From positions 1 to 35,971 of the forward strand of contig JAAUZD010000048.1 of the NCBI GenBank assembly GCA_014804785.1: a DNA stretch of 35,971 bases, in the 5' to 3' direction. A program made the position numbers and the translations under genes. The stretch is from Lachnospiraceae bacterium. GTDB lineage: Bacteria; Bacillota; Clostridia; Lachnospirales; Lachnospiraceae. This document shows, piece by piece, positions 6,493 through 35,971 of the stretch. The notes under the pieces were generated by a model. That model ran no database searches and was not told the DNA's origin. It worked only from the letters and a program-made list of their open reading frames with translations. Within the stretch, counting starts at the first letter, position 1; each line of letters starts with the position of its first letter.

Positions 6493-6518
6493 TTCATTTC
6501 AAATGAATCACTCCTTTT
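6482..6518. terminator. Bidirectional terminator between glf and the FliD-like gene
   Basis: A perfect inverted repeat with 18-bp arms (6482-6499 and 6501-6518) is centred on one base. The A-run on one side and the T-run on the other serve both strands. The glf stop codon (6490-6492) lies inside the left arm, and the convergent gene ends three bases beyond the right arm. Confidence 0.9.
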
Positions 6519-6520
6519 GA

Positions 6521-7828: not shown

Positions 7829-7861
7829 AGAATGCCCCTCCTTTCTTCCGTGAATTTAAAA

Positions 7862-7881
7862 CCGTCAACACCATTTGACGG
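7862..7881 (-). promoter_or_regulatory. Leader hairpin upstream of the FliD-like gene
   Basis: CCGTCAA (7862-7868) and TTGACGG (7875-7881) form a perfect 7-bp stem with a 6-nt loop in the transcript, some 20 nt before the ribosome site. On the transcript a little further upstream, ACAAGGAA (7900-7893) resembles a CsrA-type GGA site. The 327-bp gap 7829-8155 otherwise holds only this leader and two divergent promoters. Confidence 0.4.
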
Positions 7882-7982
7882 GAAAGTTCTTATTCCTTGT
7901 AATAGTAGCCTTTATATTAGTATATGCAAGGTGAGCAAGAAGCTTTCTGCATTAGGGCATAAAAACCTACTTTTATAAAATA

Positions 7983-8011
7983 ATTCTATCATGAGAAAGT
8001 ATGGAAGACAA
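7983..8011 (-). promoter_or_regulatory. Promoter of the FliD-like gene
   Basis: On the minus strand TTGTCT (8011-8006), a 17-bp spacer and TAGAAT (7988-7983) with a TGA extension. This is a sigma-A-type promoter; no sigma-D (GCCGATAA) element was seen. Confidence 0.65.
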
Positions 8012-8057
8012 TAGCTGTTTTAATAGGAAATTTGGGTGAAAAAATGACAAATTGCTG

Positions 8058-8086
8058 TTGACGGAAAGAGAAGGATATGTTATAGT
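8058..8086 (+). promoter_or_regulatory. Promoter of rpmG-secE-nusG
   Basis: TTGACG (8058-8063), a 17-bp spacer and TATAGT (8081-8086) preceded by TGT. It leaves a leader of about 60 nt before rpmG. Confidence 0.8.
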
Positions 8087-8155
8087 AATCAAACGAGATT
8101 AGATTTAGGTCTTTTTTTTATGCAAAAAATCCGGTAAAAGATTGGAGGAATAATC

Positions 8156-8305
8156 ATGCGTACAAGAATTACATTGGCATGTACAGAATGCAAGCAACGC
8201 AACTACAATACTACTAAAGATAAGAAGACACATCCGGACAGGATGGAGACCAAGAAGTATTGTAGATTCTGCAAGACTCATACATTGCACAAAGAAACGA
8301 AGTAG
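8156..8305 (+). CDS. rpmG: 50S ribosomal protein L33
   Basis: A 49-codon gene reading [20 protein letters not shown] and ending HTLHKETK. Cysteines at 9, 12, 36 and 39 form two CxxC pairs, so this is the zinc-binding (C+) form of L33, a large-subunit protein near the E site. ATTGGAGGA at 8141-8149 is the ribosome site. It is the first gene of the conserved rpmG-secE-nusG order. No second L33 copy lies in the window; a zinc-free paralogue elsewhere would be regulated by zinc in many Firmicutes. Confidence 0.95.
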
Positions 8306-8332
8306 TTTGCGGAGGGCTGAAAGGAGTTAAAG

Positions 8333-8542
8333 ATGGCAGATAAGACAGCAAATAAGACATCCAAAGAGCCAAGTTTCTTCAAAGGAGTCAAGGCTGAATT
8401 TAAGAAAATTTCATGGCCCGACAAAGATTCCCTTTTGAAACAGTCCATTGCGGTTGGTTGTATTTCAGTTGTGATGGGAATCGTAATCGCAGTATTGGAT
8501 TTCTTAATGCAATGTGGCGTAAGATTCCTGACAAGTCTGTAG
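8333..8542 (+). CDS. secE: Preprotein translocase subunit SecE
   Basis: A 69-residue single-pass form of SecE, the clamp subunit of the SecYEG protein-conducting channel. After a polar N-terminus (MADKTANKTSKEPSFFK), the amphipathic conserved helix GVKAEFKKISWPDKDSLLKQ precedes one membrane span (SIAVGCISVVMGIVIAVLDF). This is the short Gram-positive type rather than the three-span enterobacterial form. The gene lies 27 bp after rpmG and 15 bp before nusG, with GAAAGGAG upstream. Confidence 0.95.
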   Translation: MADKTANKTSKEPSFFKGVKAEFKKISWPDKDSLLKQSIAVGCISVVMGIVIAVLDFLMQCGVRFLTSL

Positions 8543-8557
8543 AGTGAGGGTGATTGT

Positions 8558-9076
8558 ATGGCAGAGGCGAACTGGTATGTAGTCCATACCTATTCCGGGT
8601 ATGAAAATAAGGTAAAAGCCAATATAGAAAAAACAATCGAGAACAGACATCTGGAAGATGAGATTCTGGAGGTTCGTGTGCCCTTACAGGATGTGGTAGA
8701 ATTAAAGAATGGCGCAAGGAAGACAGTCCAGAAGAAAATGTTCCCGGGATATGTTTTGATTAATATGGTTATGAATGATGACACATGGTATGTTGTCAGA
8801 AATACCAGAGGTGTGACGGGATTTGTAGGACCCGGAAGCAAGCCGGTTCCATTGACGGAAGCGGAGATGAAGCCTCTTGGAATTAAAACAGAAAATATTT
8901 CCGTGGATTTTGCAGAAGGAGATACTATTGCGGTTGTTGCCGGTGTGTGGAAGGATACCGTCGGTGTGGTACAAAGGATGGACTTCGGCAAGCAGACGGC
9001 AACCATCAATGTAGAGCTGTTTGGCAGGGAAACACCTGTGGAAATCAGTTTTGCAGAAGTAAGAAAAATGTCATAA
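8558..9076 (+). CDS. nusG: Transcription elongation/antitermination factor NusG
   Basis: A 172-residue protein that binds the RNA polymerase clamp and couples it to Rho or the leading ribosome. The NGN domain runs from ANWYVVHTYSGYENKVKANI through KKMFPGYVLINMVMNDDTWYVVRNTRGVTGFVG. The KOW domain (about 120-172) contains EGDTIAVVAGVWKDTVGVVQRMD and ends FAEVRKMS. Length and domains are standard. It is last in the rpmG-secE-nusG unit before a leader region that precedes rplK. Confidence 0.97.
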   Translation: MAEANWYVVHTYSGYENKVKANIEKTIENRHLEDEILEVRVPLQDVVELKNGARKTVQKKMFPGYVLINMVMNDDTWYVVRNTRGVTGFVGPGSKPVPLTEAEMKPLGIKTENISVDFAEGDTIAVVAGVWKDTVGVVQRMDFGKQTATINVELFGRETPVEISFAEVRKMS

Positions 9077-9114
9077 TGGACAAAAGCATTTGGCATGGAT
9101 TAGCAGGATATTTA

Positions 9115-9143
9115 TTGCAGGCATAAGCCGGCGTAAATATAGA
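9115..9143 (+). promoter_or_regulatory. Possible promoter of rplK-rplA
   Basis: TTGCAG (9115-9120), a 17-bp spacer and TATAGA (9138-9143) lie 39 bp after the nusG stop. The match is moderate. If used, it gives a leader of about 100 nt filled with three small hairpins. Confidence 0.45.
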
Positions 9144-9160
9144 GCAACTTTACAATTAGT

Positions 9161-9232
9161 CTGCATGTAAGAATGCAGGCTGTGGGAGCAGAGACAGTTC
9201 TGCGCCATACCACGATGCAAGGATATTTGCAT
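9161..9232 (+). promoter_or_regulatory. Structured leader of rplK (three hairpins)
   Basis: Three consecutive stem-loops can be drawn. The first is CTGCAT/ATGCAG (9161-9166, 9173-9178). The second is GCAGA/TCTGC (9188-9192, 9199-9203) with an outer GG/CC pair. The third is ATGCAA/TTGCAT (9215-9220, 9227-9232), ending just before the AGGAGG of rplK. None has a U-tract. Autogenous control of the L11-L1 operon by L1 is well known in other bacteria, so this may be the binding leader, but the fold has not been tested against known families. Confidence 0.45.
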
Positions 9233-9251
9233 TATAATAGGAGGTGCCACA

Positions 9252-9677
9252 ATGGCAAAGAAAGTAGAAGGATACATTAAGTTACAGATCCCTGCTGGTA
9301 AAGCTACACCAGCGCCCCCGGTTGGTCCTGCACTTGGACAGCATGGGGTTAATATCGTTGAATTTACAAAGCAGTTCAACGCAAGAACGGCAGATAAGGG
9401 TGATTTGATCATTCCTGTTGTCATCACAGTATATGCAGACAGAAGTTTCAGTTTTGTTACGAAAACTCCCCCTGCTGCAGTACTTCTTAAGAAAGCATGC
9501 AACTTGAAATCTGGTTCAGCAGTGCCTAACAAGACAAAGGTTGCAACCATTTCCAAGGCTAAGATTCAGGAAATTGCAGAGATGAAGATGCCTGACTTAA
9601 ATGCCGCAAGCTTAGAAGCTGCTATGAGCATGATTGCTGGTACAGCAAGAAGTATGGGAATTACAGTAGAGGATTAA
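9252..9677 (+). CDS. rplK: 50S ribosomal protein L11
   Basis: A 141-residue protein of the GTPase-associated centre. The N-terminal domain has [21 protein letters not shown] and [15 protein letters not shown]. The C-terminal RNA-binding domain runs from [15 protein letters not shown] through [25 protein letters not shown] to the terminal [16 protein letters not shown]. All the usual glycines and prolines that bind 23S rRNA are present and length is standard. A strong AGGAGG precedes the ATG, and the gene is followed by rplA after 76 bp. Confidence 0.97.
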
Positions 9678-9701
9678 TAGATATCCAAATAAAATTGTAG
9701 A

Positions 9702-9735
9702 GTGGGAGGCGATTGGGGATGCCCACGCCGATTGA
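9702..9735 (+). promoter_or_regulatory. Stem-loop between rplK and rplA (possible L1 site)
   Basis: GGCG-ATT-GGG-ATG-CCC-A-CGCC style pairing spans 9708-9729, giving a GC-rich stem with an asymmetric internal loop. An alternative stem pairs GTGGG (9702-9706) with CCCAC (9722-9726). It ends 17 nt before the rplA ribosome site. It is much more GC-rich than the flanks. A regulatory L1-binding role is plausible but not proven. Confidence 0.4.
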
Positions 9736-9753
9736 ACCATAGGAGGATTAATA

Positions 9754-10443
9754 ATGAAACATGGAAAGAAATATGTAGAGGCTGCAAAACAGATTGACCG
9801 CGCAGTGGCATATGAACCTGCAGAGGCAATTACACTGGTTAAAAAGACAGCAGTTGCAAAATTTGATGAAACAATTGAAGTGCATATCAGAACAGGCTGT
9901 GACGGACGTCATGCAGAACAGCAGGTTCGCGGCGCCGTAGTACTTCCTAACGGTACAGGTAAGACAGTCAAGGTGCTGGTATTTGCAAAGGGAGATAAGG
10001 TGAATGAAGCTGAGGCTGCCGGAGCTGATTATGTTGGCGGAGATGAACTGATTCCAAAGATTCAGAATGACGGATGGCTTGACTTTGACGTTGTTGTTGC
10101 TACACCGGACATGATGGGCGTTGTTGGACGTCTGGGTAAGGTTTTAGGTCCTAAAGGTTTGATGCCTAATCCGAAGGCCGGTACTGTTACGATGGATGTG
10201 ACAAAGGCAATCAATGATATTAAAGCAGGTAAGATTGAATACAGACTTGACAAATCCAATATTATTCATGTGCCGATTGGAAAAGCATCTTTTGAAGAGA
10301 CAAAGCTTCAGGAGAACTTTAGTGCACTGATGGAAGCAATCGTGAAAGCGAAACCTTCAGCACTGAAAGGACAGTATCTGAGAAGTATTACCGTTACTTC
10401 CACTATGGGACCTGGCGTGAAAGTCAGCGTTGCAAAATTCTAA
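9754..10443 (+). CDS. rplA: 50S ribosomal protein L1
   Basis: A 229-residue ribosomal stalk protein that also represses its own operon in many bacteria. Motifs visible are [16 protein letters not shown], the domain I strand [12 protein letters not shown], the domain [17 protein letters not shown], the conserved [21 protein letters not shown], and the C-terminal [20 protein letters not shown]. Length is standard. AGGAGGATT precedes the ATG. A terminator follows, so in this genome L11-L1 is separated from L10-L12 by an inserted gene. Confidence 0.97.
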
Positions 10444-10461
10444 TCTGAACTGGATGAAATA

Positions 10462-10491
10462 AGAACCGTTTCTCTTTTGGGGAACGGTTCT
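10462..10491 (+). terminator. Probable terminator after rplA
   Basis: AGAACCGTT (10462-10470) pairs with AACGGTTCT (10483-10491), extended inward by TCTC/GGGG pairs to a TTTT loop, a 13-bp stem. The following bases (ATTTGCAT) are a poor U-tract, so termination may be partial. Confidence 0.6.
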
Positions 10492-10493
10492 AT

Positions 10494-10521
10494 TTGCATA
10501 ATTGGCAGAATGTGTTATTCT
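10494..10521 (+). promoter_or_regulatory. Promoter of the CapA-family gene, close to its ATG
   Basis: TTGCAT (10494-10499), a 16-bp spacer and TATTCT (10516-10521) with a TGT extension. The -10 ends six bases before the ATG at 10528, so the start of transcription would fall at or next to the start codon. Confidence 0.5.
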
Positions 10522-10527
10522 GTCAAT

Positions 10528-11820
10528 ATGAAGAAAAGATCCAAGAAGCAGATAGCAAAAATGAATAAAAGAAGTGGCAGAACAAGGCGGAACGTCAGAC
10601 CGATGCTTGCCTTTGTATTGACGTTGTGCGGGGTGTTATCGGTTGGCATTGCGGGAATGATGATTGCCAGAATTCTTATATCAGGGGAAGGAGATGAGGG
10701 CGTGCCTGAAATTTTTGGGCATGTGGATTTCCGGATTCCCTCTGAAGAGATACAGCAGGAGCCAGAAGAAGAAATTGCTGAATCGCCCTCCCGCTATGCT
10801 GCAGAACTTTTGGATGAAGAATATAGAAGGGAAAACAATATTCTTGTATGGGAGAGCAGCGCGGAGGATACTGTGACTTTTGGGTTTGTGGGAGATTTTC
10901 TGCTGGATGATGAATATGCAATCATGGCAAATCTGTTAAGGCGGGGAGCAACCATAGAAAACGGGATATCAGAGCCTTTGCTTGCACAGATGAGGGATGT
11001 GGATATTCTGGTGGCAAATAATGAATTTCCTTTCACAGATAGAGGAACGCCTACCGAAGACAAGACCTTTACTTTCCGTGCAGACACAAGTACGGTATCT
11101 TATCTTGAGGATATGGGAGTGGATGTGGCAGTGCTTGCCAATAATCATATTTATGATTTTGGCGAAGTGGGACTTCTGGACACTTTGGACACCTTGAGGA
11201 GTGCAGGAATACCGCAGGTAGGGGCAGGCAGGAATCTTAAAGAAGCATCGGCGCCACTTTATTTCATTGTGAACGATATGAAGATTGCGGTGGTGGCAGC
11301 TACACAGATAGAAAGGCTGGACAATCCGGATACGAAAGGCGCCACGGAGGACAGTGCGGGTGTATTCCGGTGCTGGAATCCTGACAAGCTGTATGAGGTA
11401 GTGGCTGATGCGAAGGAGAACAGCGATTTCGTTATCGTTTATATTCATTGGGGAACAGAGAACCAGACGGATCCGGATTGGGCGCAGCTTGAGCAGGCAC
11501 CTAAGATTGCCGAAGCGGGTGCGGATCTAATCATAGGAGACCATTCTCATTGCCTGCAGGGAATCGCCTATTTTGGGGATACTCCGGTAATCTACAGCAT
11601 GGGAAATTTCTGGTTTAATTCAAAAACGCTGGACACGGGAATGGTAAAGGTGACCATAGACCAGCAGGGGCTTGAATCGTTCCAGTTCCTTCCCGCAATT
11701 CAGTCCGATTGCAGAACGGCTCTGGCATATGGCATAGATAAAGAAAGAATACTTGCCTATATGCGGGACCTGTCGCCTGATGTGCGTATTGATGAAGAAG
11801 GATTTGTGAGCAAAAATTAA
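10528..11820 (+). CDS. CapA-family (poly-gamma-glutamate synthesis type) membrane-anchored metallophosphatase-like protein
   Basis: A 430-residue protein. A very basic N-terminus (MKKRSKKQIAKMNKRSGRTRR) is followed by one membrane span (MLAFVLTLCGVLSVGIAGMM), then an acidic linker and an extracellular CapA domain. The domain has the strands and metal ligands of the calcineurin-like CapA fold: TFGFVGDFLLDD, DILVANNEFPFTD, VDVAVLANNHIYDFGEVGLLDTL, FVIVYIHWGTE, ADLIIGDHSHCLQG and PVIYSMGNFWFNS. CapA relatives handle anionic polymers such as poly-gamma-glutamate, but no capB or capC is nearby, so the substrate is open. Neither ATG candidate (10528 or 10561) has a good ribosome site; 10528 is preferred because the promoter sits just upstream. 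Its place between rplA and rplJ is unusual and breaks the usual ribosomal-protein cluster. Confidence 0.8.
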   Translation: MKKRSKKQIAKMNKRSGRTRRNVRPMLAFVLTLCGVLSVGIAGMMIARILISGEGDEGVPEIFGHVDFRIPSEEIQQEPEEEIAESPSRYAAELLDEEYRRENNILVWESSAEDTVTFGFVGDFLLDDEYAIMANLLRRGATIENGISEPLLAQMRDVDILVANNEFPFTDRGTPTEDKTFTFRADTSTVSYLEDMGVDVAVLANNHIYDFGEVGLLDTLDTLRSAGIPQVGAGRNLKEASAPLYFIVNDMKIAVVAATQIERLDNPDTKGATEDSAGVFRCWNPDKLYEVVADAKENSDFVIVYIHWGTENQTDPDWAQLEQAPKIAEAGADLIIGDHSHCLQGIAYFGDTPVIYSMGNFWFNSKTLDTGMVKVTIDQQGLESFQFLPAIQSDCRTALAYGIDKERILAYMRDLSPDVRIDEEGFVSKN

Positions 11821-24632: not shown

Positions 24633-25820
24633 ATGGCTAAAGCTAAATTTGACAGAACCAAAACCCATTGTAATATTGGTACCATCGGTCACGTTGACCA
24701 TGGTAAAACAACATTAACAGCAGCTATCACAAAGGTACTTGCAGAAAGAGTTGCTGGTAATGAAGCTACTGACTTCGAGAACATCGACAAGGCTCCCGAA
24801 GAAAGAGAAAGAGGTATCACTATCTCTACAGCTCACGTTGAGTATTCAACAGATAAGAGACATTATGCACACGTTGACTGCCCTGGACATGCTGACTACG
24901 TTAAGAACATGATTACAGGTGCTGCTCAGATGGACGGCGCTATCCTCGTAGTTGCTGCTACTGACGGTGTTATGGCTCAGACAAAGGAGCACATCCTTCT
25001 GTCCCGTCAGGTAGGTGTACCTTATATCGTTGTATTCATGAATAAGTGTGATATGGTTGATGATCCTGAACTGCTTGAATTAGTAGAAATGGAAATCACA
25101 GAACAGCTTGAAGAATATGAATTCGAAGGATGCCCGATTATTAAGGGTTCCGCTCTGAAAGCTCTGGAAGATCCTAAGAGCGAGTGGGGCGACAAGATCA
25201 TGGAACTTATGGATACAGTTGATTCCTATATTCCTGATCCTCAGAGAGAGACAGATAAGCCTTTCCTTATGCCTGTAGAAGACGTATTCACAATCACAGG
25301 TCGTGGTACAGTTGCTACCGGTAGAGTAGAGCGCGGTACTCTTCACCTCAATGAAGAAGTTGAAATCGTTGGTATCAAGGAGGAAACACGTAAGACTGTT
25401 GTAACTGGTATCGAAATGTTCCGTAAGCTGCTTGACGAAGCTCAGGCTGGTGATAACATCGGTGCACTGCTTCGTGGTGTTCAGAGAACAGAAATCGAAA
25501 GAGGACAGGTTCTTTCCAAACCCGGAACAGTTACCTGCCACACAAAATTCACAGCTCAGGTTTACGTCCTGACAAAAGATGAAGGTGGACGTCATACTCC
25601 TTTCTTCAACAACTACAGACCTCAGTTCTATTTCAGAACAACTGACGTAACTGGTGTATGTAACCTTCCTGCAGGTACAGAAATGTGCATGCCTGGTGAT
25701 AACGTAGAGATGACAATCGAACTGATTCATCCTATCGCTATGGAGCAGGGTCTTACATTCGCTATCCGTGAGGGTGGTAGAACAGTTGGATCAGGCCGTG
25801 TTGCTACGATTATTGAGTAA
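24633..25820 (+). CDS. tuf: Elongation factor Tu
   Basis: A 395-residue GTPase that delivers aminoacyl-tRNA to the ribosome. Motifs are [14 protein letters not shown] (G1), the switch [15 protein letters not shown] (G2), [13 protein letters not shown] (G3), NKCDMVDD (G4) and GSALKAL (G5), then domain II ([13 protein letters not shown]) and domain III ending SGRVATIIE. Length is standard. AAAGGAGGA precedes the ATG. It has its own promoter and a strong terminator, so it can be expressed above fusA. Whether a second tuf exists is not visible here. Confidence 0.98.
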
Positions 25821-25842
25821 TCAATAGAAACACAGTAAATTC

Positions 25843-25876: not shown

Positions 25877-25967
25877 ATTGGTATAATTAAATTATAAATG
25901 ATTAATGGCTTTATTTTGGCATTAAAAACTATCAATAAGCAAATAAGCTAAATGTCCTAATTGACAA

Positions 25968-26020
25968 TTGAATGCAGAAAATAATAATGCTATAATGGTT
26001 TCAAAATAGAACTAATTAGT
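25968..26020 (+). promoter_or_regulatory. Promoter and operator-like palindrome of the five-gene cassette
   Basis: TTGAAT (25968-25973), a 17-bp spacer and a perfect TATAAT (25991-25996) with a TGC extension. Fifteen bases after the -10 lies the perfect palindrome ACTAATTAGT (26011-26020), close to the expected transcription start, well placed for autorepression by the winged-helix protein at 26050. Confidence 0.75.
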
Positions 26021-26049
26021 ACTGTTTGAGAGAGCTGAAGGTGTAGGTA

Positions 26050-26310
26050 ATGAATGAAGTTTTAAGCTTTGTAAATAAAAAAACGAAAGTATTGCTAATA
26101 TTTAAAGAAAACCAATTAGAGATTGAGGGTAAAAGTATATGTCCTCTTAATCAACAAGAAATAGCGAGTCTGGTGCCTTGTGGAAAATTGAAAGTAAATC
26201 AGATTATTAAGGAATTGATCCAAGATGGTTATGTTGAGAGAATACATGCAAAAGGGCGCTATTTTATAACGACTAAAGGATATGAGTTGCTTGAAAAAAT
26301 GTCCTTATGA
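26050..26310 (+). CDS. Small winged-helix regulator of the cassette
   Basis: An 86-residue protein that reads as one winged helix: KKTKVLLIFKENQLEIEG, then CPLNQQEIASLVPCGKLKVNQIIKELIQDGYVERI (helix-turn-recognition helix) and a wing with HAKGRYFITTKGYELLEKM. It resembles MarR/ArsR-like transcriptional switches or control proteins of restriction-modification operons. No metal-site cluster is evident. GAAGGTG stands before the ATG. It is first in the operon, 36 bp before the methyltransferase, with a palindrome at the promoter, so the likely job is timing or repression of the cassette. Partners are inferred from position. Confidence 0.75.
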   Translation: MNEVLSFVNKKTKVLLIFKENQLEIEGKSICPLNQQEIASLVPCGKLKVNQIIKELIQDGYVERIHAKGRYFITTKGYELLEKMSL

Positions 26311-26346
26311 GAAATTGACTATAGATTGTAGGCAAAGAGGTAATGT

Positions 26347-27762
26347 ATGAATAAGAAGTGCCAGGTGTTCACGCCTGAAAATTATGTACGAGAATTACTA
26401 GACAGTGTTGGGTATACAGAACACTTATATGGGAAAAAGATATTAGAGAATTCTTGTGGTGATGGCAATATTCTGGTTGCAGTTGTTCAAAGGTATATAG
26501 ACGATTGCCGAGCAAATGGGTTGTCAAGAACACGAATTAAGAATGGGTTGGCAAGAGATATTTATGGAATTGAAATTGATCCAGAACAATATCATAAGTG
26601 TATTGGAAATTTGAACGAAGTATTGCAAAGGAACAATATAATTAGAGTAGAGTGGAAAATCTTTAATGCTGATTATTTGCGATGGAATGCTTTGCCACAA
26701 TTTCAATTTATTGTAGGTAATCCACCATATATAACATATAGTGAGTTAAAAAAAGATGAGCAAAAATATGTAAAAGAAACATTTGAAACTTGCGTAAAAG
26801 GAAAATTTGATTATTGTTATGCTTTTATCGAGAAAAGTATTAAATCATTAGCAAAAGATGGGAAAATGGCTTACTTGATTCCAAGTAGTATATTTAAAAC
26901 AGTATTTGGAGTAAATTTAAGAAATTATATGAAGCCATACATAACAGTTATCAAAGATTATACACAAGAAAAGGTATTTAATAATGCGCTGGTCAAGTCT
27001 TCAATTATGGTATTAGATAAGCAAAGGAAGCAAGGAGTATTACACTATAAGGATATGACTTTAGAAACGGAAATAGATATCTTGATAAATCAACTGACAG
27101 ATAAATGGTTTTTTACAGAGAATTTAGCAAATGGAATGCATCGATTTGGAGATTATTTCAAAGTGTCGCATGTGGTCGCAACATTACTGAACAAAGCTTA
27201 TGTAATCAAAGAAGAAGATTATCAAGAAACAGAGCAAGGATTTCTTTGTAATGGGCATCATATAGAAAGAGGTATAGTGAGAGATACAGCGACTCCTAGA
27301 TCTTTACGATATCAGAAGAATGAAAAAATTATATTTCCGTATATATATGATGAAGGGCATTTAGTAAGATTTGAAGAAGGAGAATTCGAAGCAAATTATC
27401 CGGAAGCAGCAGCGTATTTAAATGATTTTCGAGATGATTTGGACAAACGTCAAAAAGATATTAGTGCAAAATGGTATGAATATGGGAGGTCACAGGCACT
27501 TGCTGGATTAGACAGTGATAAATTACTTATCTCAACAGTTGTTACGGAGAATGTAGCTGTGTATAGACTTGCCAAGGAATGTATTCCATATGCGGGAATG
27601 TATATTGTTAGGTGTGAAGGCAATAATGAATATACGTTGGGGGATGCAGTACGTATTTTAGAGAGTAGAGATTTTAGGCAGTATGTGTTGGATGTGGGAA
27701 TACATATTAGTGGAAGTTCTTTAAGAATAACCTCGAAGGATGTTGAAGAGTATAAGTTTTAG
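26347..27762 (+). CDS. N6-adenine DNA methyltransferase (Eco57I/TaqI-like)
   Basis: A 471-residue class I SAM-dependent DNA methyltransferase. QVFTPENYVRELLDS near the N-terminus is typical of N6-adenine enzymes of type II/IIG and type I systems. Motif I is ILENSCGDGNIL (residues about 32-43, a variant of the usual DPxCGxG). IYGIEIDPEQYHKC supplies the acidic ribose-binding residues, and the catalytic NPPY is at residues 125-128 in FIVGNPPYITY. GKMAYLIPSSIFKTVFGVNLRNYM matches the post-catalytic strand. The C-terminal 200 residues should be the target-recognition domain; no nuclease motif is fused. The next gene starts 11 bp later with its ribosome site overlapping this stop. Target sequence unknown. 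Confidence 0.88.
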   Translation: MNKKCQVFTPENYVRELLDSVGYTEHLYGKKILENSCGDGNILVAVVQRYIDDCRANGLSRTRIKNGLARDIYGIEIDPEQYHKCIGNLNEVLQRNNIIRVEWKIFNADYLRWNALPQFQFIVGNPPYITYSELKKDEQKYVKETFETCVKGKFDYCYAFIEKSIKSLAKDGKMAYLIPSSIFKTVFGVNLRNYMKPYITVIKDYTQEKVFNNALVKSSIMVLDKQRKQGVLHYKDMTLETEIDILINQLTDKWFFTENLANGMHRFGDYFKVSHVVATLLNKAYVIKEEDYQETEQGFLCNGHHIERGIVRDTATPRSLRYQKNEKIIFPYIYDEGHLVRFEEGEFEANYPEAAAYLNDFRDDLDKRQKDISAKWYEYGRSQALAGLDSDKLLISTVVTENVAVYRLAKECIPYAGMYIVRCEGNNEYTLGDAVRILESRDFRQYVLDVGIHISGSSLRITSKDVEEYKF

Positions 27763-27773
27763 GAGGCAACTCA

Positions 27774-29912
27774 ATGGAAAAATTGAAATATATTGTAGAA
27801 GACAGTATACTGGCAGAACTGCTGGGAGTTCAAAACTTTTCCAATAAAGAATCTGCGATCTTGGAATTAGTAAAGAATGCTTTTGATGCAAATGCATTAA
27901 AAGTAAAAATTGTAATTAGGAAAGACAGTATTGAAATTGTAGATGACGGATGTGGGATGAATCGGGATGATTTGGCTCAAAATTGGATGCATATTGGCAA
28001 AAGCAGCAAAGGTTACGAAATTGATGGAACTAATGGGAAAAAGAGGGTTCAGGCAGGGTCTAAAGGTGTTGGTAGATTTGCTTTAGCGAGGTTAGGTGCA
28101 AGTGCAGAAGTCTATTCACATAAAAATGCTTGTAAATCAATAGTTTGGATAACAGATTGGAATTATAGCACTCTGGAAGAGGTTGAAGATTATTCACTTA
28201 TTGGAACAAAAATGTTAATTACAAAATTAAGGGATAAGTGGACTGAAAAAACTGCAAATAATTTGGCCGAATATTTAGGGAGAACTTATTGTGATGATGC
28301 AATGGAAATAGAATTATTTTTTGGAGATAAGAAAATATTAATAAATCGTGTGTTTGAAAAACCAGAAAAAGGTGTTAATTTTTCTGCAAAAATAACCTTG
28401 ACCTATTGCGCAGAAATAAAAAGCTTGCGCTGTAGTGTTGAGTCCGATGAGTTTACAGAGGAGGCTCAGAAGTACTGTAAAAATAACATTTACAGTTATA
28501 CAAATGATATTGATTTAAAAAAGGAATATTATGATAAGAGTTTTGATGAAGAAGTTATTAATCTTGATAATTTGCTTACAGAATTAGGTGATTTTTCTGC
28601 AGAATTATATTTTGGAATAGACAGAGTATTGGCAGGAGATGAAGAACGTTTCTTATACAAAAGAAAAGTATTATCCAATAGATATAATTACGGAATAATT
28701 TTATATAGAAATTCTTTTAGCATTTCGTCCTATGAGGGAAAAAAAGACTGGTTGGGTTTGGGAAAACGTTCAAGGAAATCACCAGCAGCCGCAACACATC
28801 CTACAGGTTCATGGAGAGTAAGAGAAAATCAAATCTCAGGAGTTGTGAATATTGATAAAAAAAGAAATTTTTATCTTCAGGATTTAGCAAATAGACAGGG
28901 GTTGGATGAAAATAATCATTATAAGCTGTTTGTAGAAATTATTCATACAGGTTTGGCTGAATTTGAACGTTATAGACAGTCACTAATAAGAGATATTAAT
29001 AAAAAGAATAAGCCAGAACCAAAAGATAAAGATTCTATAACTGCAAAAGTTGTAAAAAATCCAGAAACAATGAGGGCTTTAACTAAGGATGAGGAAGCAA
29101 GATTTGTAGATGAACTGGAAGGATTGCAAAAAGAACAAAGAGAATATAAAAAGAATATTGAGGATACAGAAAAAAGATATAAATATGATGTACGTATTTT
29201 AAATGTTCTTGCCACCTCGGGGTTAAAAGCAACATCCATAGCACATGAAATGAAAAACGATAGAAATAAAATCGATGGAAATTATGATTTTATTGTGAAA
29301 GCTCTTAAAACATATGATATGTGGGAAGAATTATGTGATCCAGATAATACTAGGGTTGCACATTTAAATGTTCCTGAATTGTTAAAAAAAAGTAGAGATA
29401 CTGGTGTGAAACTATTACAGTTTATGGATGTAATGCTGGAAGAAGTGGAGAAGAGGCAGTTTATTCCCGAGGAGTACAGTATAAAAGATCTATTAGATAG
29501 AGTTAAGGATAATTGGGAGAATGACTATGCATGGATAAATATTAATGTAGAAGTGACTAATCAAGTAAGATTTACTATTTCAGAAGATGTAATAACTGTC
29601 ATTTTTGACAATTTGATTTTAAATAGTATTCAGCAGAACGAAAAACGAAATAGATTAGAAATAAAAATTGAGGTTACTATGTCAGCTGATATGTTATTTG
29701 TTTGCTATAGGGATAATGGAGTTGGACTACCAGACAAATACAAGAAGAATCCGATGAAAATTTTGGAACCACATGAGACTTCGCGGAAGAAAGGACATGG
29801 ATTAGGAATGTGGATTGTTAATAATACTTTAAATATGTCTGGTGGAGAGGTGCTTGATATAATAAGTAATAGCGGATTTGAAATTGATTTTACAATTGGA
29901 GGAAATTTGTAA
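27774..29912 (+). CDS. Dual-GHKL ATPase: MORC/paraMORC-like N-terminus plus histidine-kinase-like C-terminus
   Basis: A 712-residue protein with two separate Bergerat (GHKL) ATP sites. The N-terminal one has the N-box ELVKNAFDAN (Glu31, Asn35), VDDGCGMNRDD (Asp57-58, Gly59, Gly61) and GSKGVGRFALARLG (95-108), the arrangement of MutL/MORC/Hsp90-type ATPases. It is followed by a middle region resembling an S5-like domain. A charged coiled-coil stretch (about 430-475) leads to ATSIAHEMKND with His491, like a histidine-kinase H-box. Then come the second N-box NLILNSIQQN (about 613-622), RDNGVGLPDKY (about 646) and GHGLGMWIVNN (about 674). paraMORC ATPases are known from restriction-modification neighbourhoods; the phosphotransfer role of His491 is inference. 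It directly abuts the receiver-like gene. Confidence 0.82.
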   Translation: MEKLKYIVEDSILAELLGVQNFSNKESAILELVKNAFDANALKVKIVIRKDSIEIVDDGCGMNRDDLAQNWMHIGKSSKGYEIDGTNGKKRVQAGSKGVGRFALARLGASAEVYSHKNACKSIVWITDWNYSTLEEVEDYSLIGTKMLITKLRDKWTEKTANNLAEYLGRTYCDDAMEIELFFGDKKILINRVFEKPEKGVNFSAKITLTYCAEIKSLRCSVESDEFTEEAQKYCKNNIYSYTNDIDLKKEYYDKSFDEEVINLDNLLTELGDFSAELYFGIDRVLAGDEERFLYKRKVLSNRYNYGIILYRNSFSISSYEGKKDWLGLGKRSRKSPAAATHPTGSWRVRENQISGVVNIDKKRNFYLQDLANRQGLDENNHYKLFVEIIHTGLAEFERYRQSLIRDINKKNKPEPKDKDSITAKVVKNPETMRALTKDEEARFVDELEGLQKEQREYKKNIEDTEKRYKYDVRILNVLATSGLKATSIAHEMKNDRNKIDGNYDFIVKALKTYDMWEELCDPDNTRVAHLNVPELLKKSRDTGVKLLQFMDVMLEEVEKRQFIPEEYSIKDLLDRVKDNWENDYAWININVEVTNQVRFTISEDVITVIFDNLILNSIQQNEKRNRLEIKIEVTMSADMLFVCYRDNGVGLPDKYKKNPMKILEPHETSRKKGHGLGMWIVNNTLNMSGGEVLDIISNSGFEIDFTIGGNL

Positions 29913-30512
29913 ATGGAAACTATAAAATTATTGTATGTTGATGATAATACGGATCCGTATATCAGCCAGTATTTGTATGAAGAGTATGAGTATGAGGGTG
30001 TAAATATTGAGTATCTGCAACGTCCGTTTGAGGCAGAAGACACTTATGAAAGTTTATTATATGACAAGGATGTTCATTCTGCTGACATTATAATTATTGA
30101 TTCAATGTTATTTGAAAATGCTAATTTATCAAATCAGAAACTGGCAGGTGAAGAATTTGAAATAATATTGAGAAAAGTATTCCCTTTTAAGGAAGTTATT
30201 GTGGTGACACAGAATGATGTTGATGAAGAGTGTAGTGTTATAAAGAAATTTGACACTTCTTCTGGTAATTCTAGTAAAGATTTCTTTGGAAAAGAATGGA
30301 AACCTATATTAGATAAGGCAGTTGAAAGGGTTAAATTATGTAGAAAGTTATTGAAACGTATTGAAGAGAAAAATTATGTTGAGAAATATTTTTTTGAAGA
30401 GATCCAACAGTCTTTACAGGGAGAAAGCGGATACGATAAATTGACAGTAGCAGATGTTGATAGACTTATTGCTGCATTTGAGGGTGTGAAGAAAGATTAT
30501 GATAACAAATGA
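29913..30512 (+). CDS. Receiver-like (REC fold) partner protein
   Basis: A 199-residue protein with the receiver pattern. LLYVDDN gives the acidic pair Asp10-Asp11, and IIIIDSMLF gives a candidate phospho-acceptor Asp63. EVIVVTQND gives Thr99 at the end of strand 4, and SVIKKFD may give the strand-5 lysine. There is no C-terminal DNA-binding domain; residues about 140-199 are helical and charged. The ATG follows the kinase-like gene's stop with no gap and uses a GGAGG inside it, and its 3' end overlaps the HNH gene by 14 bp. It therefore looks like a dedicated relay between the dual-GHKL protein and the nuclease. The loops differ from classic response regulators, so it could be a pseudo-receiver. 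Confidence 0.68.
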   Translation: METIKLLYVDDNTDPYISQYLYEEYEYEGVNIEYLQRPFEAEDTYESLLYDKDVHSADIIIIDSMLFENANLSNQKLAGEEFEIILRKVFPFKEVIVVTQNDVDEECSVIKKFDTSSGNSSKDFFGKEWKPILDKAVERVKLCRKLLKRIEEKNYVEKYFFEEIQQSLQGESGYDKLTVADVDRLIAAFEGVKKDYDNK

Positions 30513-31146
30513 CTATAGAAATACAGAATATTGTCCAATGTTAGAAAACGTTGGGGAGAAGAAAAAAGCACTTGAAGAAAAGATAAGAAAAGCTCATCCA
30601 AGGCAAAAAATAATATATAATAAGGTGCACAATCGGAATACCTCCTTTAATAAAGAGTTTTGTGCTATATATAATTGTAAGTGCGCTTATTGTGGGGTTT
30701 CAATGGACATTCTTCCAGCAACACTTTTCGAGGTAGATCATTTTGTGGCAGAATCACTGTTTGATGAGAAAGAAGAAGCTGGAAAAGTAAACAATCTTGT
30801 GCTTGCGTGCTATCAATGCAATCGAAATAAAAAAGAGTTTGAGATTGGTGGCGAGTACATTGAGAAATTGAATACAGATAATGGAAAAATTGCTGATATA
30901 TTCTTGAGGGATGAAAAATATTATATAAGAATCAGGGACGATTATATTGCGGATGAAACTATAAATGGTTTCTATAATCAACTTCAATTGATTCATCAAA
31001 CGAGAAGATTAGATTACCTATTGACTAATATGCAAGGATTACATAGAAAATTAGAAGGTACAATACAAGGTGGAAGATTGGCAGAGGCGATATTGATACT
31101 GCAAAGAAAACGCAATAAATTTGTAGAAAAAGAGAATATTGAGTGA
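30499..31146 (+). CDS. HNH endonuclease
   Basis: A 215-residue nuclease of the HNH superfamily with a zinc-ribbon frame: CAYCG (Cys62, Cys65), LFEVDHFVAES (Asp80-His81, the catalytic pair), KVNNLVLACYQCNRNKKEF (Asn98/99 and Cys104, Cys107, Asn108). The N-terminal 55 residues are basic and helical (KKKALEEKIRKAHPRQK), probably contacting DNA; the C-terminal part is helical. It starts inside the receiver-like gene, so the two are translationally coupled. As the last gene of a methyltransferase operon it is the natural restriction or effector enzyme. The nucleic-acid target, and whether methylation protects against it, are not visible. Confidence 0.85.
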   Translation: MITNDYRNTEYCPMLENVGEKKKALEEKIRKAHPRQKIIYNKVHNRNTSFNKEFCAIYNCKCAYCGVSMDILPATLFEVDHFVAESLFDEKEEAGKVNNLVLACYQCNRNKKEFEIGGEYIEKLNTDNGKIADIFLRDEKYYIRIRDDYIADETINGFYNQLQLIHQTRRLDYLLTNMQGLHRKLEGTIQGGRLAEAILILQRKRNKFVEKENIE

Positions 31147-31477
31147 TACATAATCTCTACGGGAAAAAGAATAACACTAAAATACTACTTATTTTATGAG
31201 AAAGGGATAAGGGCTGTTGCGAAAGTAGATAAGTATTATTTGTGTAGAACAATATAAAGTAATAGCTTGAGTAGACCTTAGATAATCTTGAGTAAATTTA
31301 CACAAGACTTATTATTGTTTTACGTCACACTGTTTGCAGCTTTTGTGAATAAGAAAATGCGGATAAGCGAAAAATTTTACGAGATAGAATCAGCATAATC
31401 TGGTTGGAAAATATGTATATTGCTTGAATTAGAGCAAGGACTGAGCGAGTATACCGTACATTAATAAGGAGTTCCTG
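31147..31477. other. 331-bp AT-rich gap with possible IS end and a promoter
   Basis: No gene was found. GGGCTGTTGCGAAAGTAG at 31211-31228 resembles terminal sequences of several insertion-sequence families, but no partner end or transposase is present, so it may be a relic or chance. CTTGAGTA occurs at 31266-31273 and 31287-31294, exactly 21 bp apart. The second copy overlaps a candidate -35 (TTGAGT, 31288-31293), followed after 16 bp by TATTAT (31310-31315). No terminator hairpin for the upstream cassette is evident. Confidence 0.4.
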
Positions 31478-34444
31478 ATGAGAAGTGTAGCAGAACTGGA
31501 AAAAAGAATACATTATCTGGAAAAGGAAAATCAATATCTGAAAAAGCTGCTGGCAGATGCAGGGATTTCCTATTCTGAGAAAGAGATAAATGGCGGCGGT
31601 AATGAATATGATCCGAATCAGGGCTCAAGGATTATACCAAGAGATATTACAGAAACAGATGCAAAAGTGTTTTTTAGTATGTTTTGGGGACGCACGGATG
31701 TATATAGCAAACGTACCATAAAGAAATCTACTGGGGAAGTAAATTATTATACACAGTGCTATAACTTTTGGAAAAATGGCTGCCTAAGAATTGCCGGAAG
31801 CAAGATAAAATGTCAGGATTGTCAGAGACAGGCATATAAGGAGTTAAAGAAAGAGCAGATTATTGACCATTTAAGGGGAAATTCAGAGGATGCTACAGAT
31901 GTCATAGGTGTTTTCCCGCTTTTGACAGATGATACTTGCAGATTTATTGTCTTTGATTTTGATAATCATGAAAAGGGTGCGGAAAAAAACGATTTTGCCA
32001 ATGCTGACGATCTGTGGAAAGACGAGGTAGACAGTCTGAGAAGAATATGTGATATAAATGGAATAGATGCGCTGGTAGAGCGTTCACGTTCGGGGAGAGG
32101 CGCACATTTGTGGATATTTTTTCAAAAACCGATAGAAGCTGGTCTTGCAAGGAAATTTGGAAATACGTTGTTAAATAAAGGCGCAGAATCTGTAAACTTA
32201 AAGTCGTTTCGTTTTTATGACCGTATGCTGCCAATGCAGGATCATCTTCCAGAAGGCGGAGTAGGTAATCTGATTGCATTGCCATTACAGGGACAGGCAT
32301 TAAAAGAGGGGAACAGTGCATTTATAGATGAACACTGGAATGCATATCCCGACCAGTGGGAAGTGCTGTTAAATAAGAAAAAGCTTTCAAAAGAATTTAT
32401 AGAGGATAAGATAGAAGAATGGACAGAGGGAAATTTTGTTACTGCTGCAGACTGCAAAGATATTTTTGAAGGCGATAATGAAAAACCGTGGGACAAAACA
32501 AAGCATTTTCATAAGGCAGATGTGGAAGGAATATTGCAGATTGCACTGTCAAATGGCGTATATGTGAATACAGAAAATTTACAGCCAAGAATACAGAATC
32601 AAATCAGGAGAATGGCTGCGTTTTCCAATCCTGTCTTTTATAAAAATCAGGCTATGGGATTGTCTAATTTTGAAAATTACAGATATATTTATCTTGGAAG
32701 TGACGAAGGTGAATACATTAAAGTTCCAAGGGGTATTTTGGAAAATATAACCGATGAATGTGAAAATGCTGATATTGAATACGAAATAGAAGATAAGCGG
32801 AGCATAGGGCATCCGATTCATGTGGAGTTTATTGGGGAACTGAAAGAATCACAGATACCCGCCGTGGAAAGGCTTCTTCAAAATGATAATGGAATTCTTA
32901 ATGCAGCCACAGCATTTGGAAAGACGGTGGTGTGCTGTAATGTTATAGCGAAAAAACAGGTAAGCACACTTATTCTTCTCCAGTCCTCAGCACTGATGGA
33001 ACAATGGCGGGAAGCACTGGAAAAGTTTTTATCTATTGATGAGGAACTGCCGGAGTATGAGACACCTACAGGGCGTAAAAAGAAACGAAAAAGTCTCATA
33101 GGGAAATTACAGGGCGCTCATGATTCTACTACAGGGATTATTGATCTTGCCATGGCTGGTTCAGTCTGTAAAAACGGTGAATACCACAGGCGGTTAAAAG
33201 AGTATGGACTCATATTGGTGGATGAGTGCCATCACGCCGCTTCAGATACCATAGTGGATATTTTACAGGAAGCAAATGCCAAATATGTATATGGAGTAAC
33301 GGCTACACCATTTAGGGGTGACGGTTTGGAAAAAATAAATTATATGCTCCTTGGACCAATCCGTTACAAATACACCTCAAAAGACAGGGCAAAGGAGCAG
33401 GGAATAGAGCATCTCGTTTATCCACGGTTTACAAGGGCAGTTGCTCCAAGATTTTCACAGGATAAAATGCATCCAAATGAGGCATATGAAATTATTCGCA
33501 ATAACGAAGGCAGAGACGAATTAATCATAAGGGATGTAAAACAATGTGTAGATGATGGAAGAACGCCTGTGGTTCTTTCCAAATATGTGGAACATTCACA
33601 GAGGTTGTATCAGCGTCTGATAAGCTATGCAGACAAAGTCTTTTTATTGTCCGGCAGTAATTCAAAGAAAGAGCATAAAGAAATTTTAAAACAGATGAAT
33701 CAGGTTACACCGGAGGAGAGTATGATACTTGTGGCAACAGGTAAACTGATAGGAGAAGGATTTGATTATCCCAGGCTGGATACGCTGATCATGGCAACTC
33801 CGGTAGCATGGAAGGGAGTGGTGGAGCAGTATGCCGGACGTTTAAACAGGGATTATGATGGAAAGAAAAACGTGATTATATATGATTACGTGGATAGCCA
33901 TATATCCATGTTTGACAGGATGTACCATAAGAGGCTTAAGGCGTACAAACAGATTGGGTATGATATTTTTTCTGGGATTGGAGCACAGAAACAAACGACC
34001 AATGCAATTTTTGACATAGATAATTACACCGACATCTATCAGAATGATTTGCTTACCGCAGAGAAAGAAATTATCATTTCCAGTCCGGCAATCAGTGGCA
34101 AGAAAGTGTATGAGATGATTCATTTACTCAAGGAAAAGCAGGAGGCGGGAATTAAAATAGTTATTATCACATGGAAACCGGACTGCTATGGATATGGAGA
34201 CAGTGCATACTGGCAGGAATTGCAGGAACAGATGCGAAAGGCAGGATTTGAAATGAACCTCGTGGAGAATTACTGCGAGCATTATTGCATTATAGACTAT
34301 CAGGTAGTTTGGTACGGAAGTATGAATTTTCTGGGGAAAGAAGATGCAGAAGATAATCTGATGCGTATTGTAGACGGGAAAATTGCAAATGAACTGCTTG
34401 AAATGACATTTGGAAATGAAAAGTATCAGGGTGAAACAATGTAA
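31478..34444 (+). CDS. Primase-like / SF2 helicase / PLD-like fusion (TOTE-conflict-system type)
   Basis: A 988-residue multidomain protein. Residues 1-30 are a coiled coil (LEKRIHYLEKENQYLKKLLA). A Cys cluster (QCYNFWKNGC, KCQDC) precedes an archaeo-eukaryotic-primase-like domain with FDFDNH (Asp160, Asp162) and SGRGAHLWIFF (His210). The helicase core has AATAFGKT (Lys482), LVDECHH (Asp582), GVTATPFRGD and GEGFDYPRLDT, and the arginine finger QYAGRLNR (Arg788). The C-terminal 130 residues are phospholipase-D-like: EHYCIIDYQVVWYGSMN keeps His935 and Asp940 but has Cys where the HKD lysine is expected, so nuclease activity is doubtful. AAGGAG precedes the ATG. Such fusions are linked to mobile elements and biological conflict; association with the upstream cassette is by position only. 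Confidence 0.82.
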   Translation: MRSVAELEKRIHYLEKENQYLKKLLADAGISYSEKEINGGGNEYDPNQGSRIIPRDITETDAKVFFSMFWGRTDVYSKRTIKKSTGEVNYYTQCYNFWKNGCLRIAGSKIKCQDCQRQAYKELKKEQIIDHLRGNSEDATDVIGVFPLLTDDTCRFIVFDFDNHEKGAEKNDFANADDLWKDEVDSLRRICDINGIDALVERSRSGRGAHLWIFFQKPIEAGLARKFGNTLLNKGAESVNLKSFRFYDRMLPMQDHLPEGGVGNLIALPLQGQALKEGNSAFIDEHWNAYPDQWEVLLNKKKLSKEFIEDKIEEWTEGNFVTAADCKDIFEGDNEKPWDKTKHFHKADVEGILQIALSNGVYVNTENLQPRIQNQIRRMAAFSNPVFYKNQAMGLSNFENYRYIYLGSDEGEYIKVPRGILENITDECENADIEYEIEDKRSIGHPIHVEFIGELKESQIPAVERLLQNDNGILNAATAFGKTVVCCNVIAKKQVSTLILLQSSALMEQWREALEKFLSIDEELPEYETPTGRKKKRKSLIGKLQGAHDSTTGIIDLAMAGSVCKNGEYHRRLKEYGLILVDECHHAASDTIVDILQEANAKYVYGVTATPFRGDGLEKINYMLLGPIRYKYTSKDRAKEQGIEHLVYPRFTRAVAPRFSQDKMHPNEAYEIIRNNEGRDELIIRDVKQCVDDGRTPVVLSKYVEHSQRLYQRLISYADKVFLLSGSNSKKEHKEILKQMNQVTPEESMILVATGKLIGEGFDYPRLDTLIMATPVAWKGVVEQYAGRLNRDYDGKKNVIIYDYVDSHISMFDRMYHKRLKAYKQIGYDIFSGIGAQKQTTNAIFDIDNYTDIYQNDLLTAEKEIIISSPAISGKKVYEMIHLLKEKQEAGIKIVIITWKPDCYGYGDSAYWQELQEQMRKAGFEMNLVENYCEHYCIIDYQVVWYGSMNFLGKEDAEDNLMRIVDGKIANELLEMTFGNEKYQGETM

Positions 34445-34701: not shown

Positions 34702-35971
34702 ATGATTCCAATAAAAATAGAAACCCTGCTAGAAGGGCGCAAAGTAGAACAAAATCGGATAGAATACAAAGAAGGCTTTAATCCATCAGAAATTGTGCAT
34801 ACAATATGCGGATATGCGAATGATATCGCAGGGGTGGACGGTGGATATCTTGTGATTGGTGTAAAAACAGAAAACGGGATTCCGATTTTGCCGCCGGTAG
34901 GTGTACCGGACGAGTTACTTGACGACATTCAACTGAAAATATTTCAATACTGTAACAAAATTGAGCCTCGTTATATTCCAAAGATTGAGATTGTGGAATA
35001 TCAAGGGGTAAATTTGGTATATTTGAAGTGTGCAGCGGGTGATGCGGGACCATATCAGGCACCTGTGGATGTTTATTCTAAAAAGGAAGCGAGGAAAGAG
35101 CAGGACCGCACAATAAAATATTGGATTCGTCCGGCATCACTTACAGTAGAAGCCAAACAAAGCGAGATAGCGGAACTTTTTGAAAAATTTGCGTCCATAC
35201 CATTTGTTGACCGCATTAATAATCGGGCATCTATGGAGCATATACGCAGGGGATATCTTGAGGATTTTATCAGAGAAAGCAATAGTTCACTGGTAGAGGA
35301 ACTTAATATACGTTCTTTGGAGGACTTATTAGTATCCGAGGAAGTGGCAGAAGAAAAAGACGAGGGAATTGCAATTAAAAATATTGGATTGCTTATGTTT
35401 GGGGAAAGACCGGACAAGCTGATTGCAGGAAGTAAAATTGAATTGGTGCGTTTTCATGATAAGGAAGCGGAGGCATCTGATTTTACAGAGAAGACATTTT
35501 ACGGTCCGATATGGAAACAGGTAAGGGATGCGTTAGACTACATTAAAACAAATTTGATTGAAGAAAAGGTTGTGAAGATTGATGGAAGGGCAGAGGCAGA
35601 CCGATTTTTCAACTATCCATATAATGCGTTAGAAGAAGCGCTTGTAAATGCGGTTTTACATAACTTCGCATAACACAAAAACTACAAAGAGGATGTGCCG
35701 GTAGAGATTCGAATTTATTTAGACCAGATTCAAATTATCAATTTTCCCGGACCGGATCATTATATTGATATGAAAAAGTTTGCGGCGGGGAAAGTCAGGG
35801 CAAGAAGATACAGAAATCCTAAGATTGGAGAATTTTTCAAGGAAATTGATCTGTCTGAGAAGAAATCGACGGGCATATCAAAAATTTTGCGTGAATTAAA
35901 AAGAAATGGTTCGCCCATGCCAGAGTTTGAAACGGATGCGGACAGAACTTATTTGATTACTACAATAAGGA
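34702..35971 (+). pseudogene. AlbA_2 / divergent-AAA (RecG-like) DNA-binding protein, interrupted by a stop (partial)
   Basis: The first 323 codons read as an AlbA_2-type protein: NRIEYKEGF near residue 20, IVHTICGYANDIAGVDGGYLVIGV (the conserved N/A-G-G-L core), YWIRPASLTVEA, and the later IKNIGLLMFGERPDKLIAGSKIELVRF. The frame stops at TAA 35671 inside EALVNAVLH-NFA-stop. After the stop the same frame continues open to the window end with the expected family sequence (HKNYKEDVPVEIRIYLDQIQ, then FPGPDHYI and EKKSTGISKILRELKRNG). Thus a 15-bp insertion (35662-35676) has interrupted an otherwise full-length gene. Family members act as transcription regulators or in defence. GGAG at 34690 supports the start. 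A sequencing error of 15 bp is unlikely. Confidence 0.8.
35659..35676 (+). other. 15-bp in-frame insertion carrying a stop codon
   Basis: Between the conserved His codon (35659-35661) and the Lys-Asn-Tyr codons (35677 on) lie AAC TTC GCA TAA CAC, absent from the expected family alignment. CATAAC occurs twice, ten bases apart (35659 and 35669), so a short duplication or element footprint is possible. The core ATAACTTCGCATA differs by one base from one arm of loxP, noted only as a curiosity. Confidence 0.6.

Follow-up and report, generated by a model that had tools for sequence, protein, structure and literature searches.

A conserved methyltransferase, ATPase-kinase, receiver and HNH nuclease cassette as a candidate phosphorelay-gated restriction system

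The window analysed here, a 35,971-nucleotide stretch of a Lachnospiraceae genome, carries a discrete cassette at 25966-31149 that encodes, in order, an N6-adenine methyltransferase, an ATPase-kinase (GHK, 712 aa), a single-domain receiver and an HNH nuclease, with a winged-helix gene in front as an optional addition. Across relatives the ATPase-kinase, receiver and HNH nuclease are inherited together, and the methyltransferase has been exchanged repeatedly. We consider it reasonably probable that these four genes form a restriction-like defence cassette, in which GHK would sense unmarked sites and a relay from His491 to Asp63 would switch on the HNH nuclease.

Layout of the cassette

The genome of [Clostridium] aminophilum KH1P1 (L030) shares a single block of DNA with the window, 89% identical over 5,214 bp from 25966 to 31149; the similarity stops at both cassette ends, and the flanking sites differ between the two genomes. 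The sequence-only reading of the window had proposed five linked genes at 25968-31146, an extent very close to this block, and the five open reading frames are all there on the + strand with exactly the spacings it gave: an 11-bp gap, a zero gap and a 14-bp overlap. The genes overlap or nearly touch. That reading had also counted the winged-helix regulator as part of the operon, a role that we rule out as a core one because among 80 fetched relatives the gene was seen only in the very close L030 and L090 (L027 and L090 are one record). A consensus scan marked promoter-like sites at the cassette's left edge, where the similarity to L030 and L027 starts; taken alone they are weak, the scan of the region having returned 36 sites against 28.8 expected. 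The features are as follows.

25961..25996, + strand: promoter-like sites at the cassette left edge (consensus scan)
25961-25988, + strand: promoter-like TTGACA/AATAAT (consensus scan)
25968-25996, + strand: promoter-like TTGAAT/TATAAT (consensus scan)
26050..26310, + strand: winged-helix protein, 86 aa, optional accessory regulator (HTH matches below curated cut-offs)
26347..27762, + strand: N6-adenine DNA methyltransferase, 471 aa, NPPY motif (Pfam Eco57I, N6_Mtase)
27774..29912, + strand: ATPase-kinase GHK, 712 aa (Pfam HATPase_c_3 and HATPase_c)
GHK residues about 7-405, + strand: MORC/Hsp90-type GHKL+S5 module (structure matches)
GHK residues about 438-712, + strand: histidine-kinase transmitter, joined to the ATPase module via a long helix (motifs, fold)
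29085..29453, + strand: DHp-like helices, residues 438-490, 497-513 and 533-560 (AlphaFold secondary structure)
29244-29246, + strand: His491, presumed phosphoryl acceptor (alignment, conservation)
29460..29909, + strand: catalytic ATP-binding (CA) domain of the kinase half
29913..30512, + strand: single-domain receiver, 199 aa, Asp10/11, Thr99, C-terminal helical tail (conservation, fold)
30099-30101, + strand: receiver Asp63
30499..31146, + strand: HNH endonuclease, 215 aa (Pfam HNH above cut-off)
30739-30741, + strand: HNH residue H81

Catalytic parts and their conservation

Profile searches bear out the methyltransferase, dual-GHKL and HNH assignments made from the sequence alone. Pfam recognises an N6-adenine methyltransferase (Eco57I 1.7e-19, N6_Mtase 5.8e-15), two GHKL domains in the dual-GHKL protein (HATPase_c_3 8.6e-22, HATPase_c 1.1e-17) and an HNH domain (5.6e-07, above the cut-off), and the residues singled out beforehand (NPPY, His491, the N and G boxes, Asp10/11, Asp63 and Thr99) are correctly placed and conserved across relatives. 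The methyltransferase profile matched the solved adenine methyltransferases 7lni (1e-22), BseCI (7.8e-16) and TaqI (3.2e-08), and 74 of the 75 methyltransferases of relatives carry NPPY, the sole miss (L107) being a split open reading frame. An identity profile along the methyltransferase displayed no sharply separate variable region, and a specificity domain as its variable part was dropped on this ground.

The first half of GHK combines GHKL and S5 with intact ATP-binding motifs, as in the paraMORC/MORC proteins of restriction-modification (R-M) operons: residues 7-409 of the model match MORC3, Hsp90 and MutL structures, and E31, N35, D38, D57, G59, G61, K97, G98 and G100 are each found in 70 of 70 proteins. 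The second half of the model matches histidine kinases and carries all of the H, N, G1 and G2 boxes of two-component kinases. His491 aligns with the histidine of ZraS and of 2c2a and is invariant (70/70), followed by E in 66 proteins, D in three and Q in one; N613, N617, G649, G674, G676 and G678 are invariant in the same 70. The predicted structure has DHp-like helices either side of His491, in agreement with the transmitter proposed in the sequence-only reading, and the least certain stretch of the AlphaFold model (pLDDT <50 at 483-499) lies around this residue. Judged by these motifs, the kinase half looks catalytically intact.

The window's receiver has no meaningful match in Pfam. PF00072 matches seven of 12 close-family receivers (E up to 1; best 1.9e-05), and the receiver model matches receiver structures. 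The acidic pair, Asp and Thr/Ser of two-component receivers are all present: in 71 receivers whose identity to the window's falls as low as 10%, Asp63 is invariant, position 10 carries D (70) or E (one), position 11 carries D (51), E (19) or N (one), and position 99 carries T (63) or S (eight). The fifth hallmark, a Lys after strand 5, does not align as conserved: K stands at position 112 in 31/71, where the alignment is uncertain; in the window model K111/K112 stand at the end of strand 5. From these residues, the receiver also looks catalytically intact. Neither Pfam nor the model revealed a DNA-binding output domain in its ~200 residues.

In the HNH proteins, N99, N108, C62 and C104 are conserved in 78/78 and H81 in 77/78, and no separate recognition domain was seen within their roughly 200 aa; the nearest PADLOC families are PtuB. 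One locus, L052, encodes receiver and HNH in one open reading frame, the only such case in the four ORF sets scanned. We kept this fusion as a hint only rather than as proof: the adjacent GHK is split over two reading frames, and in this metagenome bin, with a broken GHK beside it, the fusion may be a product of decay.

Linkage and distribution among relatives

A scan of species genomes returned at least 516 relatives, and linkage was counted in the best 80 of these, that is, the nearer ones: 73 have an intact GHK, and in 67 of these the sequence continues for 1.5 kb or more beyond it. In all 67 the receiver gene adjoins GHK on its 3' side (66 by script, L104 by reading frame), and HNH follows downstream in 66, the exception (L077) being a split HNH. 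A methyltransferase matching the profile lies within four genes in 57 of the 59 loci with room on both sides, upstream in 35 and downstream in 22; the two exceptions are L048, with type I M and S genes after HNH, and L092. Homologues of the dual-GHKL protein thus keep the company that the sequence-only reading had expected of them, and the parts of the cassette form one conserved unit. The phosphorelay that would decide when the HNH nuclease fires, put forward in that reading as inference, becomes more likely.

The family occurs in phyla that include Bacillota, Bacteroidota, Spirochaetota, Campylobacterota, Actinomycetota and Melainabacteria. In the Lachnospiraceae sample GHK was detected in 12/299 genomes, and each of the 11 relatives besides the window carries receiver and HNH with the order unchanged; nine of them have the orthologous methyltransferase, L019 has a different one downstream, and in L025 none was seen. 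A reverse search found the window-type methyltransferase (>700 bits) in 10/299 Lachnospiraceae genomes, all among the 12 with GHK and with the next match at 176 bits, using a profile built from those same ten sequences. Across 398 Bacillota genomes the A5 profile recovered the window's own protein as the sole full-length one, together with a partial protein with a stop in G519 and other matches that are mostly confined to the kinase half. A full-length protein (>700 bits) was found in 3/198 genomes of the class to which L080's genome belongs, the centre genome being one of the three. Intermediate matches (about 125-275 bits) adjoin other methyltransferases and mostly longer receiver-like proteins. 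The close family is therefore rare outside Lachnospiraceae (12/299), though widely scattered.

On mobile elements, two of 72,556 plasmid records match, both with the whole quartet: L267 (Bacteroides finegoldii, 5965-11067) and L268 (Salipiger profundus, 5761-10949). Public records label their genes sensor histidine kinase, hypothetical protein, HNH endonuclease and N-6 DNA methylase, and thus overlook the receiver. There was no match among 50,697 phage records at E 1e-20. In IMG/VR, 106 of 130 pattern-matching stretches encode a relative, and 17 of 39 loci (L187-L225 of 80 kept) have GHK, receiver and HNH. On virus-like contigs such as L196, L198 and L206, which are probably prophages, a methyltransferase-like protein of 420-458 aa with an NPPF motif precedes kinase, receiver and HNH, which follow in this order. 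Distant GHK relatives (L179-L186, L205-L225) stand with other methyltransferases and are mostly followed by longer open reading frames (about 290-600 aa). Of ten such proteins scanned, five gave a receiver-type Pfam match, whether weak or clear, and such proteins may be fusions of a receiver with another effector. Two further loci, L060 and L064, are decayed cassettes with truncated GHK genes and no receiver, HNH or methyltransferase; in L064 a type I R-M-like set follows the truncated gene.

Separate inheritance of methyltransferase and cutting block

To describe how the four parts are inherited, we compared 45 loci carrying this methyltransferase type (>400 bits), with duplicates of L019, L020, L027 and L028 removed. 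Pairwise identities correlated strongly within the block (Spearman, GHK-receiver 0.85, GHK-HNH 0.79, receiver-HNH 0.77), as against 0.17-0.25 between the methyltransferase and the block proteins, the HNH-methyltransferase value being 0.17. The three cutting-block types change twice on the GHK, receiver and HNH trees versus 12 times on the methyltransferase tree. Types A, B and C were defined from GHK identity and length, which builds the two changes on the GHK tree partly into the definition; the receiver and HNH trees are independent of it. The 12 changes lie below all 200 shuffles (mean 19.5), so the exchange of methyltransferases is repeated and not random. AU tests reject clades on the methyltransferase tree for type A (p 2.9e-70) and type C (p 1.5e-41), and other methyltransferase types stand beside the same blocks too (e.g., L036, L042, L050).

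A natural pair illustrates the exchange at the level of DNA. Between the left edge and the end of the methyltransferase gene, L030 and L027 share 97.2% identity over 1,833 bp; the window and L027 are 86% identical in this stretch. The similarity of the pair ends just past the methyltransferase stop codon, where the following gene has its ribosome-binding sequence, and the proteins encoded from there on are only 26% (GHK), 17% (receiver) and 16% (HNH) identical. Methyltransferase and nuclease genes lie side by side, as in type II R-M systems, yet the correlation of 0.17, the 12 changes and the AU tests show that the two are not inherited as a matched pair. If a cutting block still functions after its methyltransferase has been replaced, it can hardly rely on its own recognition sequence, and we infer that the methyltransferase supplies the address and that the cutting block has little sequence specificity. 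As far as the literature searched shows, this separate inheritance is a new element.

Comparison with known systems

The closest published counterparts are the proteins with HATPase_c_3, HEF_HK and HATPase_c domains that Bellieny-Rabelo, Pretorius and Moleleki described in 2021 next to Response_reg_2 proteins; these authors noted R-M genes near the pairs, proposed a two-component-like system, and reported HEF_HK proteins in Firmicutes (PMC8011034). The general idea of a kinase-receiver pair beside R-M genes, which the sequence-only reading presented with no mention of this paper, was thus already in print. HEF_HK (PF19191) elements and the window both combine HATPase_c_3, DHp-like helices and HATPase_c in one protein, with an adjoining receiver gene and a DNA methyltransferase and nuclease nearby. 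Profiles of GHK and HEF_HK kinases align over their full length (hhalign probability 99.9, E 1.1e-35, 706 columns), with the HEF_HK His in register with His491.

Membership of the window proteins in these Pfam families was ruled out, since neither model matches the cassette. Twelve GHK members searched at E up to 1 contained no PF19191 match, and the three weak matches of this model in the window's own genome all lie outside the cassette; PF19192 matched neither that genome at E up to 10 nor 12 receivers, and the window receiver family compared with three PF19192 proteins reached an hhalign probability of 0.9% (three rows only). PF19192 was found in 0/299 Bacillota genomes, in a search that matched nothing anywhere and so does not imply absence, and in 3/198 genomes of the class of L080's genome. 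Three HEF_HK loci that we fetched (L114-L116) encode kinases of 995-1002 aa and receiver proteins of 528-581 aa, with a C5-type methyltransferase and a Vsr-like gene nearby (named by eye from the sequences), and profiles of the window-family HNH, receiver and N6-methyltransferase had no match in them. The window pairs an N6 methyltransferase with HNH, whereas the 2021 paper stresses C5-cytosine methylases, Vsr and HNH_2 (PMC8011034). The window family is a distant sister of the HEF_HK/Response_reg_2 pairs that those two Pfam models miss: an element of the same general kind that belongs to a different family, in which an N6-methyltransferase and HNH are strict partners. We found no description of such an N6-methyltransferase/HNH variant in the open-access literature, preprints excluded.

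The sequence-only reading had placed the cassette among paraMORC R-M neighbourhoods. Iyer, Abhiman and Aravind described paraMORC1 with HNH genes in 2008. Many MORC R-M operons include an SF2 helicase, and none lies inside the window cassette. In the available text of the 2008 paper 'response regulator' has no occurrence, and neither kinase transmitter nor receiver is mentioned (PMC2292703). For VcSduA (Shedu, with a GHKL domain, paraMORC3), experiments have shown that phage defence requires both the GHKL ATPase and its nuclease; as far as the available text describes it, that nuclease (DUF4263) is fused in the same chain, with no methyltransferase, kinase transmitter or receiver (PMC12137116). 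A figure legend of DefensePredictor names HATPase and REC (receiver) among the domains of predicted, unvalidated defence systems (PMC13092281).

HsdR, HsdS, PglX-type methyltransferase and PglZ are all missing from the cassette, the methyltransferase's PglX matches lying far below the cut-off. In type I and BREX systems specificity resides in the methyltransferase or its specificity subunit, which is the role that the cassette methyltransferase would have here.

Proposed mechanism and rival explanations

In the reading that we favour, the N6-methyltransferase would mark the cell's own DNA and thereby name the sites, and the MORC/Hsp90-like half of GHK would clamp or inspect DNA, or the methyltransferase on DNA. 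When unmarked sites are met, the ATPase half would release the kinase half, which would autophosphorylate on His491 and pass the phosphate to receiver Asp63; the phosphorylated receiver would then switch on the HNH nuclease encoded by the overlapping gene. A broader version, in which the cutting block is interchangeable, has no specificity of its own, accepts several methyltransferase families as plug-in parts and fires at unmarked DNA through a His-Asp phosphorelay, is a serious possibility that we hold more tentatively.

Ordinary type II R-M, with HNH recognising the methyltransferase's site alone and GHK and receiver controlling only amount or timing, seems unlikely to us. Such systems often carry a small regulator in front, which the winged-helix gene resembles, and the methyltransferase and nuclease genes are linked; the nuclease, however, would be expected to stay with its methyltransferase and travels with GHK and receiver instead, nearly the same methyltransferase stands beside the divergent HNH proteins of L030 and L027, and these small nucleases have no visible recognition domain. 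We give still less credence to a signal-transduction pair that controls R-M expression, which was suggested in general terms in 2021. The kinase boxes and the acidic pair, Asp and Thr/Ser of the receiver are all in place, and the authors speculate on R-M control (PMC8011034), but the receiver is a ~200-aa protein with no recognised DNA-binding output domain, its gene overlaps translationally with HNH, and most relatives seen lack the winged-helix gene.

Comparably improbable is a complex without phosphate transfer, its kinase half and receiver being there for dimerisation and docking. GHKL proteins often act by ATP-driven conformational change alone and the receiver's Lys hallmark shows no clear conservation, which would suit this alternative; yet docking needs none of the residues that are kept, namely His491, N613, N617 and the G1/G2 glycines in 70/70 and Asp63 in 71/71, nor the acidic residues found at 10/11 in every row except one and the T or S found at 99 in each, in receivers down to 10% identity. 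Least probable, with only a slim chance in our view, is abortive killing of the cell, in which infection or damage would be the trigger, HNH would destroy cellular DNA and the methyltransferase would hold HNH off. The proximity of HNH to PADLOC's PtuB group and the relatives on virus-like contigs, many of them probably prophages, point that way, but the adjacent methyltransferase in 57/59 loci favours discrimination between DNAs.

If the phosphorelay reading holds, this would be a restriction system whose cutting decision is a phosphorylation event. Restriction enzymes are usually viewed as acting directly at the recognised site; a kinase and receiver between recognition and cutting would make a threshold, a delay or a reset possible and would allow other signals to be integrated. 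The conserved four-gene unit offers a compact set of parts across several phyla, the proposed relay is addressable by two point mutants (His491 and Asp63), and the natural L030/L027 pair makes the location of specificity directly testable.

Genomic surroundings

Behind the cassette, at 31478-34444, lies a gene for a TOTE-type protein of 988 aa with an archaeo-eukaryotic primase domain (2.5e-77), an SF2 helicase and a PLD-like domain, a further predicted conflict gene; the term 'TOTE conflict' appears in no paper among the matches listed in the open-access literature. A Schlafen/AlbA_2 protein (1.5e-12) follows at 34702-35673, close to the contig end. Pfam scans for these two covered the window copies only. 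Both genes were ruled out as parts of the cassette, as L030 shares 25966-31149 only. In L028 a similar Schlafen/AlbA gene (36% identity) stands directly upstream of the cassette methyltransferase.

On its other side, the window cassette lies directly behind tuf, whose 3' end is at 25741-25822; the window, which ends with its contig at 35971, holds no second copy of this end. In two of seven same-genus stretches a repeat of the tuf end, about 60 bp or longer, lies 8.5-9 kb downstream: L279 has copies at 1108-1197 and 10184-10243 with an integrase-like reading frame between them, and L280 has copies at 1109-1190 and 9658-9815 with methyltransferase-like reading frames between them. The tuf 3' end resembles an integration hotspot, and in L024, from another genus, a related cassette also lies behind tuf.
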